Shown piece by piece: positions 25,148 to 32,417 of a stretch of 32,417 nucleotides of DNA. This stretch comes from Hyphomicrobiales bacterium (lineage in GTDB: Bacteria > Pseudomonadota > Alphaproteobacteria > Rhizobiales > WTKA01). The translations under genes were made by a program, and so were the position numbers. Every line of letters begins with the position of its first letter. Position 1 is the first letter of the stretch. Location: NCBI GenBank assembly GCA_011524605.1, contig WTKA01000074.1:14734-47150 (forward strand), read 5' to 3'. The notes beneath the pieces are model-generated. The model did no database searches, had not been told where the DNA came from, and was given only the letters and a program-made list of their open reading frames with translations.

Positions 25148-26443
25148 ATGAGGAAAATTATTGCTGCTATTAGAGTATTTGCTTTTATATCGATAGCAAT
25201 CGCTTTTTCTTCTATACTATATCTTTATTTAGGGCTAGATGTGGTTATCTCTGGCTTATCAGGCGCTTTAGCCTTTTTTCTTTTAGCTTATATTGCCGCC
25301 TCTTTCAGATATTCGAATGAATTTGAAAAGTTACGTGCGGAATTATTAGAATATCACAAGGACACTGATGAAATTATTCGTCGCATGGCCGAAATTAGAT
25401 CAGAGAATAATGATTTGAAAATACAAATCGATCAATTTGAAGATAAGCTGCTATCGTTAGAAAATCTCTACAGTAGCGATGGTAGAAATAAAAATAGCGA
25501 TAAAATTTCAAGAAAGCTTAGAGATAATGTGAAGGCTGTCATTGGTTTAAGCGCTAAGGGCGCAGAGGTTAATGTGCATGATAAACATCAAAGCTCGCCT
25601 ACAAATATATCAAGGCTCAAAGATCCGAGCGAAAAAGCTGTATTAAGTAATAATGAAGACGGTGCCGATGATCCCAAGCAAAAAATAGCTGAGCTTATGG
25701 AAAAAGGTGATGGTATTGATATTGCCTTGCAGCCTATATTAGAGATACCTCATAGGCGTTTAAAATATTATGATGTTCAGCCTCAGTTGATAGAAGAGGA
25801 TGGGCGTAAACAATGTATTTATGCGTATCGTGGAGGGCTGGATCAAGATAAAATTTATGCTGATCTGGATGCTGATTTAATCCCAAAAATTATTCATATT
25901 ACGCGTAAAGTTTGTGAAGAAATAAAAAATACAAAAGTTTTTTACCGCCTTTCATCGGCCTTTTTAGAAGACCCTGCTTATCACGCTCAGATTATAGCGG
26001 CTTTAATGGCAAATCGTATTATTGCGTCTCAGCTTATATTTAAAATTGATCATGCCACTTATAAAAATGCGACTGATAGCTCAAAGAGGTTCATGAATGA
26101 TATTTCTGATTTAGGCTATGCTATATGCCTAACGGCTATTCAAAGCTTTGATTTTGATATTGAGGATTTAGATAAGCAAAATATCAATTTTTTAAATATT
26201 CATAGCCAAGCGCTTATTGCATCAAGCGCGGATGCAAAATCACTACAACATTTTAGAGGGCTGATAGAAAATCTCAAAATGGTTGATATCAAAATAATTG
26301 CTGATCGTGTTGAAAATGAAACGAGCATTCTAGAATTATTAGATTTAGATATTAGTATTGCACAAGGTAATTATCTTGCGCCAGCTCGCCTTGTGAAGCC
26401 AGAATTGATAGAGGGCAAAGAACCAAGCTATCATACGGCCTAG
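25148..26443 (+). CDS. membrane-anchored protein with a degenerate EAL-like domain
   Basis: 431 aa; two N-terminal TM helices, a coiled coil, then 'IDIALQPILEIPHRRLKYYDVQPQL...IIADRVENETSILELLDLDISIAQGNYLAPARLV', a recognisable EAL-domain scaffold with altered signature residues. Confidence 0.75.
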   Translation: MRKIIAAIRVFAFISIAIAFSSILYLYLGLDVVISGLSGALAFFLLAYIAASFRYSNEFEKLRAELLEYHKDTDEIIRRMAEIRSENNDLKIQIDQFEDKLLSLENLYSSDGRNKNSDKISRKLRDNVKAVIGLSAKGAEVNVHDKHQSSPTNISRLKDPSEKAVLSNNEDGADDPKQKIAELMEKGDGIDIALQPILEIPHRRLKYYDVQPQLIEEDGRKQCIYAYRGGLDQDKIYADLDADLIPKIIHITRKVCEEIKNTKVFYRLSSAFLEDPAYHAQIIAALMANRIIASQLIFKIDHATYKNATDSSKRFMNDISDLGYAICLTAIQSFDFDIEDLDKQNINFLNIHSQALIASSADAKSLQHFRGLIENLKMVDIKIIADRVENETSILELLDLDISIAQGNYLAPARLVKPELIEGKEPSYHTA

Positions 26444-26538
26444 GCTCAGGACTTGATTATTTAGTCCATTCTACACCAATAGATTTATCCTATGAGCGGA
26501 CAAGAAAGCGCAGGAACTGCTGGTAATTTCAAGCTTTT
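26441..26538 (+). repeat. dispersed ~98-bp intergenic repeat, copy A
   Basis: taggctcaggacttgattatttagtccattctacaccaatag...ggtaatttcaagctttt. By hand alignment 90/98 identical to copy B (28913-29010). Its first three bases are the EAL gene stop codon. Confidence 0.9.
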
Positions 26539-26544
26539 ACGTTA

Positions 26545-27729
26545 TTATTGCTCAGATAAAGTTGCGCAAAAGTCAGTAATCTTTGAAAAATTTGTATATT
26601 TCAAACTTTTACCATCGCTTTTTTGATGCAGCTGATCATAGGCTATAAGCATTGCCGCAAGGGCGGAATTGCCAAGGGCTGGTACTGGTTTTAAGATCGC
26701 ATAGGCTTTTGTAAGCTTGTTTAATATCTCTTCATCAATGGCTTGCTTTGCATTGGGATGTAAATAATTTAATGCCGTTTTATGAACGCCATGAACAAGC
26801 TTTTGCGCATTTTCAGGCATGAAGACAAAGCGATCACTTACCTCTAAATCACGGGTAACTTTATAATATTGCTTTGATGAGTTCTCAATATCATCAGCCA
26901 CATGAATACACATTACAAGTGTTTCCAGTGCAGCTAATCGGCGTCCAAAAGAACGGTCATTACTTGCAAAATATGCCGCTTCTCCGCACGCCCATAATTT
27001 ATCGACCGTTGTTCTACCTTGCCCATCAACAACAGCACCGCCAATATGATATAAAGATTGTTCCGTTGATGGGCTCATTGCTATTTGCCCAAGGGCTGCT
27101 AATCTAGCTCCCGCACGGGCAGCTAGGGCTATACCAATACCTGTGATACCTGCTTGTTTCATATCTGCTTGAAAAAGAGAGGATATCCCGCCTGTTGCTA
27201 AGACAACAGCTTGCGCTGGAATAGTGACTTGATGCGCTGGCGTTTCTGCATGGTGTGCCATCAGGCCGGTTGCAAAGCCACCGTCAATAATAATTGTATC
27301 TGCAATATAGCCTTCAACAAAACGAATATTCTCAGTAGCGCGTGCCCTATTAAGTAGATTGCTATGAATAGTATTCACGCTGCAACTGCCTTCACAGCCA
27401 AATTCATTGAGCTTTTGTTGAGTATTCTCTAGGTTTTTATAAAGATATTGAGCATGGGGTGTGGGATCATTCGATAATTCATCTAATATCTCAGGATCAA
27501 AAGGAGAAATATTGAGATCGCTGGACGCGTAATATTCAGTGGCTATTTTTGTTGTTAATATTGTAACAGGACGAATAGGCGCCACGCAAAGCGCTGTTAA
27601 TAGGCCTGCAATGCCAGCGCCGATAACGACAACATCATCAATGCCATCAGATGGAAAGGGAGGGAGAGTGCCATAGGTCTTTTCTGTGGGCTCGAATTCT
27701 AAATCTTCATTTTCAAACAAATCAGACAC
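26545..27729 (-). CDS. FAD-dependent oxidoreductase, shortened L-aspartate oxidase (NadB)-like
   Basis: 394 aa; 'DDVVVIGAGIAGLLTALCVAP', 'AVVLATGGISSLFQ' and 'YHIGGAVVDGQGRTTVDKLWACGEAA' are NadB/succinate-dehydrogenase-flavoprotein motifs, but much of the substrate-binding region is missing. Confidence 0.75.
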   Translation of the reverse strand: MSDLFENEDLEFEPTEKTYGTLPPFPSDGIDDVVVIGAGIAGLLTALCVAPIRPVTILTTKIATEYYASSDLNISPFDPEILDELSNDPTPHAQYLYKNLENTQQKLNEFGCEGSCSVNTIHSNLLNRARATENIRFVEGYIADTIIIDGGFATGLMAHHAETPAHQVTIPAQAVVLATGGISSLFQADMKQAGITGIGIALAARAGARLAALGQIAMSPSTEQSLYHIGGAVVDGQGRTTVDKLWACGEAAYFASNDRSFGRRLAALETLVMCIHVADDIENSSKQYYKVTRDLEVSDRFVFMPENAQKLVHGVHKTALNYLHPNAKQAIDEEILNKLTKAYAILKPVPALGNSALAAMLIAYDQLHQKSDGKSLKYTNFSKITDFCATLSEQ

Positions 27730-27914
27730 AGCTCATCCTTAATCTAAAATTACCTTTTATTGATATGCTTCCCTATAAATAAAGCGGTAAAAAGTCAAAT
27801 AGAAAGCGTTTTGCTTATCCTTGCTTTTATCATATATATCATCAGGACTATGACTATTCTGTGTGGTTGGTTTGATTTAAATGGAAGACTGAGAATTAAT
27901 AGAGGATTTGTAAT

Positions 27915-28910
27915 ATGCATTTGAATATAAAACTAACAATAATAGCTAGTCTTTTATTTGCTTTTTTTCCTCTCCAAGCAGATGCTCAAGATTTACAACT
28001 TGGTTTGCCAATTCAATGTGAGCCAGAGGACGGTTGTCTCATTTGGCAATATGTAGATCAAAGTCCCGACGATAAATATTTTGATTATAAATGTAGTATT
28101 CAAAGTTATGATGGCCATAAGGGTACTGATTTTCGCGTTACCTATCCTGCCATGCAAAAAGGGGTTCCAGTGCTTGCTAGCGCTCAAGGCAAGGTATTAG
28201 GGACGCGTAATAATATGCGGGATGTTTTCGTAGATGACATTGGCGTACAGGCGGTTAATGGCAAAGAATGCGGTAATGGCCTGGTTTTAGATCATGGCAA
28301 TGGTTGGCATACGCAATATTGCCATTTAAAGCAGGGTTCTGTAATGGCAGAAACAGGGGATATTATTCAAAAAGGTCAGCAAATTGGTTTGGTTGGCCTT
28401 TCTGGTAAAACCAGCTTTCCCCATGTCCATTTTAGCGTGAAAAAAAATCAAAAAGTGGTAGATCCTTTTGATCCTGATAATGAAGCGTCCTGTAAGCCTT
28501 CATCTATCACTTTGTGGGAAGACAGAGCCCACCCAGTTTTAGCCTATCTAGAGCGCCCCATTGTTGGTATTGGTTTTAAAGGCCAGCAAATATCTATTTC
28601 AGAAGTAAGAAAAGGACTTGAAAAGGAAAGTAATGGCTCTCAGCAAGATCCAGTTATTTTACTTTATGCTGAAATCGCTAATATTCATGAAGGCGACCGT
28701 ATTCAGCTCACAATTTTTGACCCTGAGGGTAAAGTTTTTCAACAAAATATATCTAAGCCGTTTGATCGGAAAAAAGCAGTTTATCGGACATATCTTGGTA
28801 AAAAGCGTCGGGTTGCTTGGATGAAAGGCCGCTATCGAGGGGTTGTTAGCGTTAAAGCAAAGACAGGCGAAATGATTTCTACCGATAGCGCCTTTTTGCA
28901 AATTGATTAG
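27915..28910 (+). CDS. M23 family (LytM-type) peptidoglycan metallopeptidase
   Basis: 331 aa; signal peptide, 'YDGHKGTDFRV' (HxxxD), 'VLDHGNGWHTQYCHL' and 'FPHVHFSV' (HxH). Confidence 0.93.
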   Translation: MHLNIKLTIIASLLFAFFPLQADAQDLQLGLPIQCEPEDGCLIWQYVDQSPDDKYFDYKCSIQSYDGHKGTDFRVTYPAMQKGVPVLASAQGKVLGTRNNMRDVFVDDIGVQAVNGKECGNGLVLDHGNGWHTQYCHLKQGSVMAETGDIIQKGQQIGLVGLSGKTSFPHVHFSVKKNQKVVDPFDPDNEASCKPSSITLWEDRAHPVLAYLERPIVGIGFKGQQISISEVRKGLEKESNGSQQDPVILLYAEIANIHEGDRIQLTIFDPEGKVFQQNISKPFDRKKAVYRTYLGKKRRVAWMKGRYRGVVSVKAKTGEMISTDSAFLQID

Positions 28911-28912
28911 CT

Positions 28913-29016
28913 TAGGCTCAGGACTTGATTATTTAGTCCATTCTGCACCAATAGATTTACACTATGAACAGAAAAGAAAGCGCTGGAACTACTGGTAATT
29001 TCAAGCTTTTTTGACG
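28913..29016 (+). repeat. dispersed ~98-bp intergenic repeat, copy B
   Basis: taggctcaggacttgattatttagtccattctgcacc...ggtaatttcaagcttttttgacgca. Starts 2 nt after the M23 stop codon. Confidence 0.9.
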
Positions 29017-29064
29017 CATTCATGGTTTAAATATATGGTGCCCATTGGTTTAATTCAAACAGAA

Positions 29065-29514
29065 TTAAACTAAATTAATAGGCCCTGAGCCTAAGGCGCC
29101 AATGGTTATGCCTTGCGCTAAAAATACGATAAGCCAATGCCCTGCGTCTATAATTGTTAACAACCAGGGCTTCATCTGAAAGCGGTGGTTAACAGCCATA
29201 GGGGCAACAACAAAACCCGCCCAAGCAAATAAAGAGGTGATGATACCATTGAGAATTGTTATCTCTCCAATATGTTCCATTAGGCCTGCTAATGTCAAAG
29301 CAAGAACCAGCTGGGCGATGAAAGCAACAATATAAGGCATGGGAGATTGTTTAATGGCGGCGCCATTTGCATCTTTGGGTCTTATATCATTTTCTGTTAA
29401 GCCTGTAGAAGCCATCCATGGTTTAGCAAAGAGAGAATACCAAACAGCACCTATCATCATAGATAAGATAACAGCGGGCAAAATAGGAAGCAGGTTGATA
29501 CCTTCTACAATCAT
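29065..29514 (-). CDS. DUF1761 family membrane protein
   Basis: 'INLLPILPAVILSMMIGAVWYSLFAKPWMASTGLT..DI' and 'AWAGFVVAPMAVNHRFQMKPWLLTIIDAGHWLI' are typical of DUF1761. The track ORF extends to 29556; the internal Met at 29514 is the more likely start. Confidence 0.85.
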   Translation of the reverse strand: MIVEGINLLPILPAVILSMMIGAVWYSLFAKPWMASTGLTENDIRPKDANGAAIKQSPMPYIVAFIAQLVLALTLAGLMEHIGEITILNGIITSLFAWAGFVVAPMAVNHRFQMKPWLLTIIDAGHWLIVFLAQGITIGALGSGPINLV

Positions 29515-29639
29515 TTGAGAGCCTTTAATCGTAATTAATATATATTTTTTAGTCATTTATAGATATAAGAAAAATTCAATCATTCTAGGCTGAGCCTAAT
29601 GACCATAATTTTTATAGTTTAACTTAAGAGATTAATGAA

Positions 29640-31712: not shown

Positions 31713-32189
31713 ATGGAGAAAACGCGAAACCCTATCAAATGGCTTATTTTTTTGCTTGCCCGGATTTATTTTCGATTAAGCCGCGGCATGACGATGGGGG
31801 TGCGCGCTGCTGTTATCAATAGGCGCCGTGAAATTTTACTCATAACCCATACATATGCTTCGGGGTGGCAATTGCCCGGTGGGGGAGTTGAGCCTGGGGA
31901 AGCAACGCTTGATAGTTTGAAGCGTGAATTATTAGAGGAAGCAGGTGTTACTGCTATTCGCAATCCTAAGCTATTTAATATTTATAATAATTCAGCTGAT
32001 TTCCCAAGGGATCATGTCTTATTATATCTGGTAACGGATTTTGATTTAGAAGGCTTTCCTAAGCCAAATCGTGAAATTAATGGACATGGCTTTTTCCCGC
32101 TAAATGATTTGCCAGAAAACACCACAATTGGTACAAAAATGAGAATAGCAGAGCTGTTAGGAAAGCGTAAAATTTCCCAAAACTGGTAA
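31713..32189 (+). CDS. NUDIX hydrolase
   Basis: 158 aa; Nudix box 'GGGVEPGEATLDSLKRELLEEAGV' (GX5EX7REUXEEXGU). Confidence 0.95.
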   Translation: MEKTRNPIKWLIFLLARIYFRLSRGMTMGVRAAVINRRREILLITHTYASGWQLPGGGVEPGEATLDSLKRELLEEAGVTAIRNPKLFNIYNNSADFPRDHVLLYLVTDFDLEGFPKPNREINGHGFFPLNDLPENTTIGTKMRIAELLGKRKISQNW

Positions 32190-32190
32190 C

Positions 32191-32417
32191 TAGGCTCAGG
32201 ACTCAATACAATAATTGACTGCATTGGAAGAAAAATAGTTTGGTTCAAGGAGAAAAACGCAGATAATACTTTTGTATTTTCAAGGCTTTTCAACGCAGAA
32301 GCAGGCTATTTTAATCCAACCCTAAAGGGCAGCGCCTAATTTTTGTATTTATGCGTTGAAATCTCCTCATTGGCAGTTAGCCAATTCGATCAATTTCGCC
32401 TAAAACTATAAAAATTA
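32191..32417 (+). repeat. divergent copy C of the TAGGCTCAGGACT repeat running into a structured inverted-repeat element (truncated by window end)
   Basis: Starts taggctcaggact 1 nt after the NUDIX stop; shares 'tttcaag(g)ctttt..acgca' with copies A/B. Contains perfect arms tttcaacgca (32288-32297) / tgcgttgaaa (32352-32361), hairpin attggc-agtta-gccaat (32369-32385) and terminal aaactataaaaatta opposing taatttttgtattt. Confidence 0.7.

Follow-up and report, generated by a model that had tools for sequence, protein, structure and literature searches.

A family of short repeats placed at gene 3' ends was analyzed in a 32,417-nt stretch of DNA (the window; contig WTKA01000074.1, assembly GCA_011524605.1) from a Hyphomicrobiales bacterium. 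Our results indicate that two of these repeats, copies A and B, and, more distantly, a third, copy C, are probably members and remnants of a single ancient lineage of miniature inverted-repeat transposable elements (MITEs), with a cloverleaf of fixed geometry (~267 nt) folded at the DNA level and with mobilization by the IS427 group. MITEs are commonly regarded as degenerate remnants of insertion sequences (ISs). The unexpected part is a cloverleaf of fixed length that is conserved by its fold across a bacterial class. Such a fixed cloverleaf was not found in the open-access papers searched, among which nothing relevant named these ends or hosts.

A fold of fixed geometry in Alphaproteobacteria

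The whole consensus of the element folds at -94 kcal/mol (z -11.4). With DNA parameters the fold reaches z -11.1, and both strands fold strongly. The predicted layout consists of a terminal stem (strands of ~32 nt), an arm of ~97-99 nt, a mini-hairpin of 7-11 nt, and a second arm of ~97-99 nt. The strong fold needs the whole element, since the 98-bp pieces common to copies A and B fold no better than chance (z -0.4 and -1.1), and the internal pairings drawn by hand in them by an earlier, sequence-only reading are weak. Covariation was observed among the copies within the genome, where 12 pairs were changed on both sides compared with 6.4 in shuffles, and 0 of 500 shuffles scored as high. One pair occurs in the genome copies as U-A, U-G, and C-G, the states of one-sided intermediates. 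The arms have internal-loop motifs in common (CGC...TTTCAAG, GACGCA) while their stems differ. No curated Rfam family matched the element. Several genomes also contain derivatives in which one arm is missing. In addition, one arm is cut to 58-64 nt at loci of unrelated genomes (L008 in the host genome, G000; L192 and L197 in G047; L186 in G395), which points to a favored site of deletion inside the arm.

When 398 genomes of the order were searched for two 12-base ends separated by 204-264 bases, 9 of them proved to contain elements, and the reversed control gave 0. A scan of 84,980 species, in which only two 12-base ends were specified and only lengths of 252-282 bp were covered, yielded 79 readable elements, nearly all of them alphaproteobacterial. 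The hosts include Cohaesibacter, Brucella (ex-Ochrobactrum) species, Roseibium, Sinorhizobium, Shimia, Phaeobacter, Thalassovita, Thalassospira, Sphingomonas, Sphingobium, Sphingopyxis, Novosphingobium, and Tsuneonella, among others. Although the 79 elements form 12 clusters that show no extended similarity in sequence, 55 of them are exactly 267 or 268 bp long within the 252-282-bp scan window, and 76 have two arms of at least 78 nt; the terminal strand is mostly 32-33 nt and the arms are mostly 95-99 nt. Two singletons that do not fold served as natural controls, one from Acetobacter (262 bp) and one from Entotheonella (255 bp), with inner z values of +1.0 and +0.5. After removal of the ends, inner z values were between -2.7 and -10.6 for the remaining ten clusters and for both subfamilies of the host genome (one representative of each, 20 shuffles). 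An element of 258 bp from a Rickettsiales metagenome-assembled genome (MAG) folds with a different layout, and no inner fold is seen in a 419-bp deletion derivative from G060 that retains pieces of a transposase. It is the fold, not the sequence, that is conserved across the Alphaproteobacteria. In a Cohaesibacter sp. MAG (JAOXSG01; G390, locus L188 and related loci), BLAST with the version of the element found there gave 105 matches, one-arm forms among them.

The covariation extends beyond the host genome. Across genera, 17 covarying pairs were found compared with 9.2 in shuffles, in an alignment of 8 arms that has a one-base register ambiguity (a slide of +1 also scores), and when 18 arms were aligned across genera with MAFFT, the basal stem alone was recovered. 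In five clusters, Watson-Crick double changes were frequent, at 55/91, 29/72, 19/87, 47/102, and 9/55 pairs. Selection on one RNA strand should give more G-U than A-C mispairs on that strand. Counted over the pairs predicted on both strands, the G-U to A-C ratios in the five clusters were 25:23, 13:9, 8:14, 8:9, and 17:13, or 71:68 in total; selection on an RNA strand, at which MITE-1, one of the two subfamilies of the genome, had alone hinted (28:17), was rejected on the pooled counts. Because of this parity, the strong folds of both strands and of the DNA model, and the one-arm derivatives, the pairing appears to be maintained in DNA rather than in a one-strand RNA or a terminator. A search for a G+C-rich stem followed by a T run at the copies found 3 sites compared with 2.8 in shuffles; two of these lie on the minus strand and coincide in part with the right end of copy B.

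Ends, target site and probable source of mobility

The host genome is a 2.3-Mb draft of 164 contigs that is 96% complete. A BLAST search with copy A found 40 scored copies of the 98-bp part, and the end motif TAGGCTCAGG occurs 150 times compared with 0 for its reversed control, which puts the repeat far beyond chance. Pairing of ends within 420 bp, performed on the genome stretches examined rather than in one whole-genome pass, gave 37 candidate elements, most of them 267-287 bp; one-arm forms of 172-181 bp and armless forms of 35 bp were also found. The 26 fullest copies could be aligned end to end, and copies within one genome are not independent of each other. The genome holds two subfamilies, MITE-1 and that of copy C, which have their ends and fold in common. 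The MITE-1 interior had no match in other species, and the element was not found in the plasmid and viral collections searched.

The element shows the properties by which MITEs are recognized, that is, terminal inverted repeats, a TA target-site duplication, no coding capacity, small size, and many copies. In the 37 paired elements, a pyrimidine (Y) nearly always precedes the TA and a purine (R) nearly always follows the right TA, so the duplication is read as a 2-bp TA within YTAR. The targets in the genome were CTAG (13), TTAG (9), CTAA (9), and TTAA (5). Relatives in the order carry elements of 843-854 bp with matching ends and target, and these encode a transposase of the IS5 family (PF13340, DDE_Tnp_1, NF033580) in two frames. 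In one such autonomous element (G029), 22 nt of one end match the MITE end without a difference. The IS427-group ISs of Paracoccus are 832-865 bp long with two overlapping open reading frames (ORFs) and a mostly 2-bp target duplication (PMC3281130), and by this description the autonomous relatives appear to fit that group in length, two ORFs, and duplication. As the terminal repeats, the TA duplication, and the CTAG-like target match those of IS5/IS427-group ISs of the same order, the element was assigned to a MITE lineage. It differs from the ISs in lacking a transposase, in its length of ~267 bp, and in a two-arm interior that is not detectably IS-derived.

Judged from sequence, the mobility of the element is secure, given its inverted ends, TA duplication, copy number, autonomous relatives, and empty sites in orthologues of one class-wide copy. 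Together with the absence of coding capacity, these features bear out the small non-autonomous element proposed by the sequence-only reading. Transposases of the IS427 group of the IS5 family would mobilize it in trans, inserting it at YTAR and duplicating the TA.

Several other arrangements were observed in the host genome. About 47 ends fall outside both subfamilies, and many are single like copy A, with a terminal repeat of 10-25 nt followed by unrelated DNA; several single ends provide stop codons (L045, L098, L099, L104). At L028, L088, and L142, a second partial end lies at a 5-base spacer (TAGGCTC beside TAGGCTCAGG), as if from insertion into the end of another element or from imperfect excision. 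At 5223-5772 of contig C88 (G000), a full MITE-1 directly adjoins a full-length member of the copy C subfamily, with a TA common to both. Many contigs end inside copies (e.g., C10, C33, C40, C66, C126, and the window end at 32417), and these repeats are probably much of the cause of the fragmentation of the draft genome.

Copies in the window and placement at stop codons

The features of the window are as follows (position, strand, description).

25148..26443, plus strand: EAL-domain gene (PF00563), which ends on copy A
26441..26443, plus strand: TAG stop codon of the EAL gene, formed by the target TA and the first G of the element
26441..26538, plus strand: copy A, a left-end relic (consensus positions 1-98, right end absent), 91% identical to consensus 1-98
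26545..27729, minus strand: FAD-binding oxidoreductase gene (PF00890), convergent to copy A
27915..28910, plus strand: M23 peptidase gene (PF01551), upstream of copy B
28913..29093, plus strand: copy B, a 181-bp element that retains both ends and arm 1 (consensus 1-134 at 98.5%, 236-280 at 93%)
28913..28944, plus strand: left terminal repeat of copy B (terminal stem)
28945..29041, plus strand: arm 1 hairpin of copy B, 97 nt
29062..29093, minus strand: right terminal repeat of copy B
29065..29556, minus strand: DUF1761 gene (PF08570), its C-terminus (LGSGPINLV) coded by the right end of copy B
31713..32189, plus strand: NUDIX gene (PF00293), upstream of copy C
32191..32417, plus strand: copy C, of the second subfamily and of the same architecture, cut by the contig end, which is the window end

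The sequence-only reading had described a 98-bp repeat at gene 3' ends. The match and positions of copies A (26441-26538) and B (28913-29010) were confirmed: they are equal in length and co-oriented, differ at 8 of 98 positions, and both open with TAGGCTCAGGACTTGATTATTTAGTCC. However, the 98 bp are only the part that the two have in common, not the full unit. Copy B runs past 29010 to the matching inverted end ACTAAATTAATAGGCCCTGAGCCTA, which closes at 29093, and intact elements measure 267-287 bp. Its arm 2 region (consensus 135-235) is deleted, and the 181-bp copy still folds at z -6.9. Copy A is truncated inside arm 1 (the left arm), and its downstream inverted end is absent. Copy C had been taken for a divergent copy over the 98 bp, but it has ~14 nt in common with copy A and differs beyond them; it belongs to the second subfamily, related through ends and fold, of which a full copy of 269 bp lies on contig C88 of the same draft genome.

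Copy B starts 2 nt past the M23 stop codon, and copy C starts 1 nt past the NUDIX stop codon at 32189. The genes flanking copy A are convergent, as are those flanking copy B. The insertion of copy B was not silent, since the last residue of the DUF1761 protein has been replaced by a terminal-repeat tail (...GALS to ...GALGSGPINLV, where GALS is read from the joined empty site).

A YTAR site read in frame as TAR is TAA or TAG, hence always a stop codon. Because the first base of the element is G, insertion after the target TA rebuilds TAG and leaves the upstream protein unchanged. The preference for stop codons proposed earlier was not significant in the host genome alone, where 6 of 24 non-coding insertions fell exactly on stops compared with 3.6 expected from the available YTAR sites (p 0.16), but it was found class-wide, with 21 of 63 insertions (21 of the 46 outside genes) compared with 11.2 expected after weighting by target type (p 0.0017, about twofold). 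With duplicates removed, enrichment relative to intergenic sites with the same tetranucleotide was found separately for CTAG (odds ratio 3.7, p 0.017) and CTAA (14.5, p 0.001). The class-wide placement at stop codons is genuine. In one case, a Thalassospira lucentensis element at GAC|TA, the uninterrupted site was found in five other Thalassospira genomes; the exact point of insertion carries TAA or TAG in three of them and TGA in the other two. Empty sites for copies A and B were not found, the closest M23 relative being 43% identical.

The excess at stops may reflect targeting or survival. The chances are about even that survival alone accounts for the placement, YTAR insertion being random and selection clearing genes and promoters. 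The gene contexts in the host genome match YTAR availability (chi-square p 0.45), and coding insertions are depleted class-wide (17 compared with 39 expected), as survival would predict. Against this, stops exceed other intergenic sites of the same tetranucleotide class-wide, and convergent gaps are not enriched in insertions. The insertions that persist would be found chiefly in intergenic DNA and at exact stop-codon positions.

Known elements, alternative explanations and meaning

Several known elements resemble the one described here. MITEPsy1 of Pseudomonas syringae is an IS5-related MITE of 100 bp with a 4-bp duplication (PMC3189936). It is likewise inserted at CTAG or YTAA, but it differs in size, duplication, and ends, and a two-arm fold is not reported there. 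REP sequences and REPINs (PMC3116915; PMC3733652) are also mobile, palindromic, non-coding, and extragenic; the IS427-type ends and TA duplication of our element argue against such an identity, and its arms are much longer. Passages on the QMITE2 element of Coxiella describe a MITE of one species with a predicted, very stable whole-length transcript fold (PMC10969869). QMITE2 has other ends and a 7-9-bp duplication, and those passages mention no class-wide fixed geometry or covariation.

An IS630/Tc1-type origin, the first guess from the TA duplication, would also fit the CTAG preference. Bacterial MITEs of the Correia and RUP type are IS630-related, intergenic, and high in copy number, with a TA duplication. 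Our element is like them in duplication, copy number, and location, but it differs in its ends, and they are not known to have a fixed-length cloverleaf. The genome has no IS630 DDE_3 domain, and where autonomous elements have these ends, their transposases are of the IS5/IS427 type, which makes this origin highly improbable. The strong covarying fold and the class-wide placement at stop codons could also suggest a structured RNA (a terminator, 3'-end stabilizer, or small RNA) used by host genes at their 3' ends, with mobility incidental, and MITEs are said in passages of one paper to give stable stem-loop transcripts (PMC10969869). This is unlikely in view of the G-U to A-C parity in five clusters, the lack of a terminator excess near copies A and B and of an Rfam family, and the copies in divergent and tandem gaps in both orientations; moreover, much of the fold is missing from copies A and B. 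The same placement and terminator results, together with mispairs that show no RNA strand, leave the transcription terminator module of the sequence-only reading unsupported. A further explanation is that of an ordinary MITE, whose arms are decaying inverted repeats kept alike by template-switch correction during replication and whose fold has no function. Quasi-palindrome correction yields two-sided changes, the G-U to A-C parity fits it, and the clean loss of arms marks them as hairpins active in replication. It is nevertheless doubtful, as the length of 267-268 bp and the arms of 95-99 nt are fixed across 10 folding clusters unrelated in sequence, the internal-loop motifs are kept while the stems change, and one-sided intermediates exist.

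Some points weigh against the IS427-mobilized cloverleaf lineage that we favor. Template-switch correction without selection can give covariation, and selection on RNA from both strands would also give G-U to A-C parity. The partner transposase was not found in the host draft genome by PF01609, protein, and NF033580 searches, one of which was positive in relatives; the orphan status is provisional, since a multicopy IS could be missing from a fragmented assembly. In addition, the ends of the copy C subfamily differ somewhat from IS427-type ends, and the gene calls are longest ORFs rather than an annotation.

Within the favored MITE lineage, the folded DNA, as extruded or single-stranded hairpins, might serve the mobility or replication of the element itself. 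More tentatively, the elements could form a class-wide lineage of transposon parasites whose identity lies in a DNA cloverleaf of 32-97-7-97-32 nt, the fold being required for IS427-group mobilization or for survival of the excised or replicating intermediate, and the ends turning stop codons into safe landing sites.

In practical terms, copies sit at many draft contig ends and add short protein tails. The YTAR target and the first G offer a simple route for insertion into a dense bacterial genome with the upstream protein left intact. Length, arm size, and fold are constant across alphaproteobacterial orders while the arm sequences diverge, so the structure is apparently constrained, and probably in the form of DNA. 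A direct test of whether an IS5-type element moves with the help of hairpin DNA is therefore possible.

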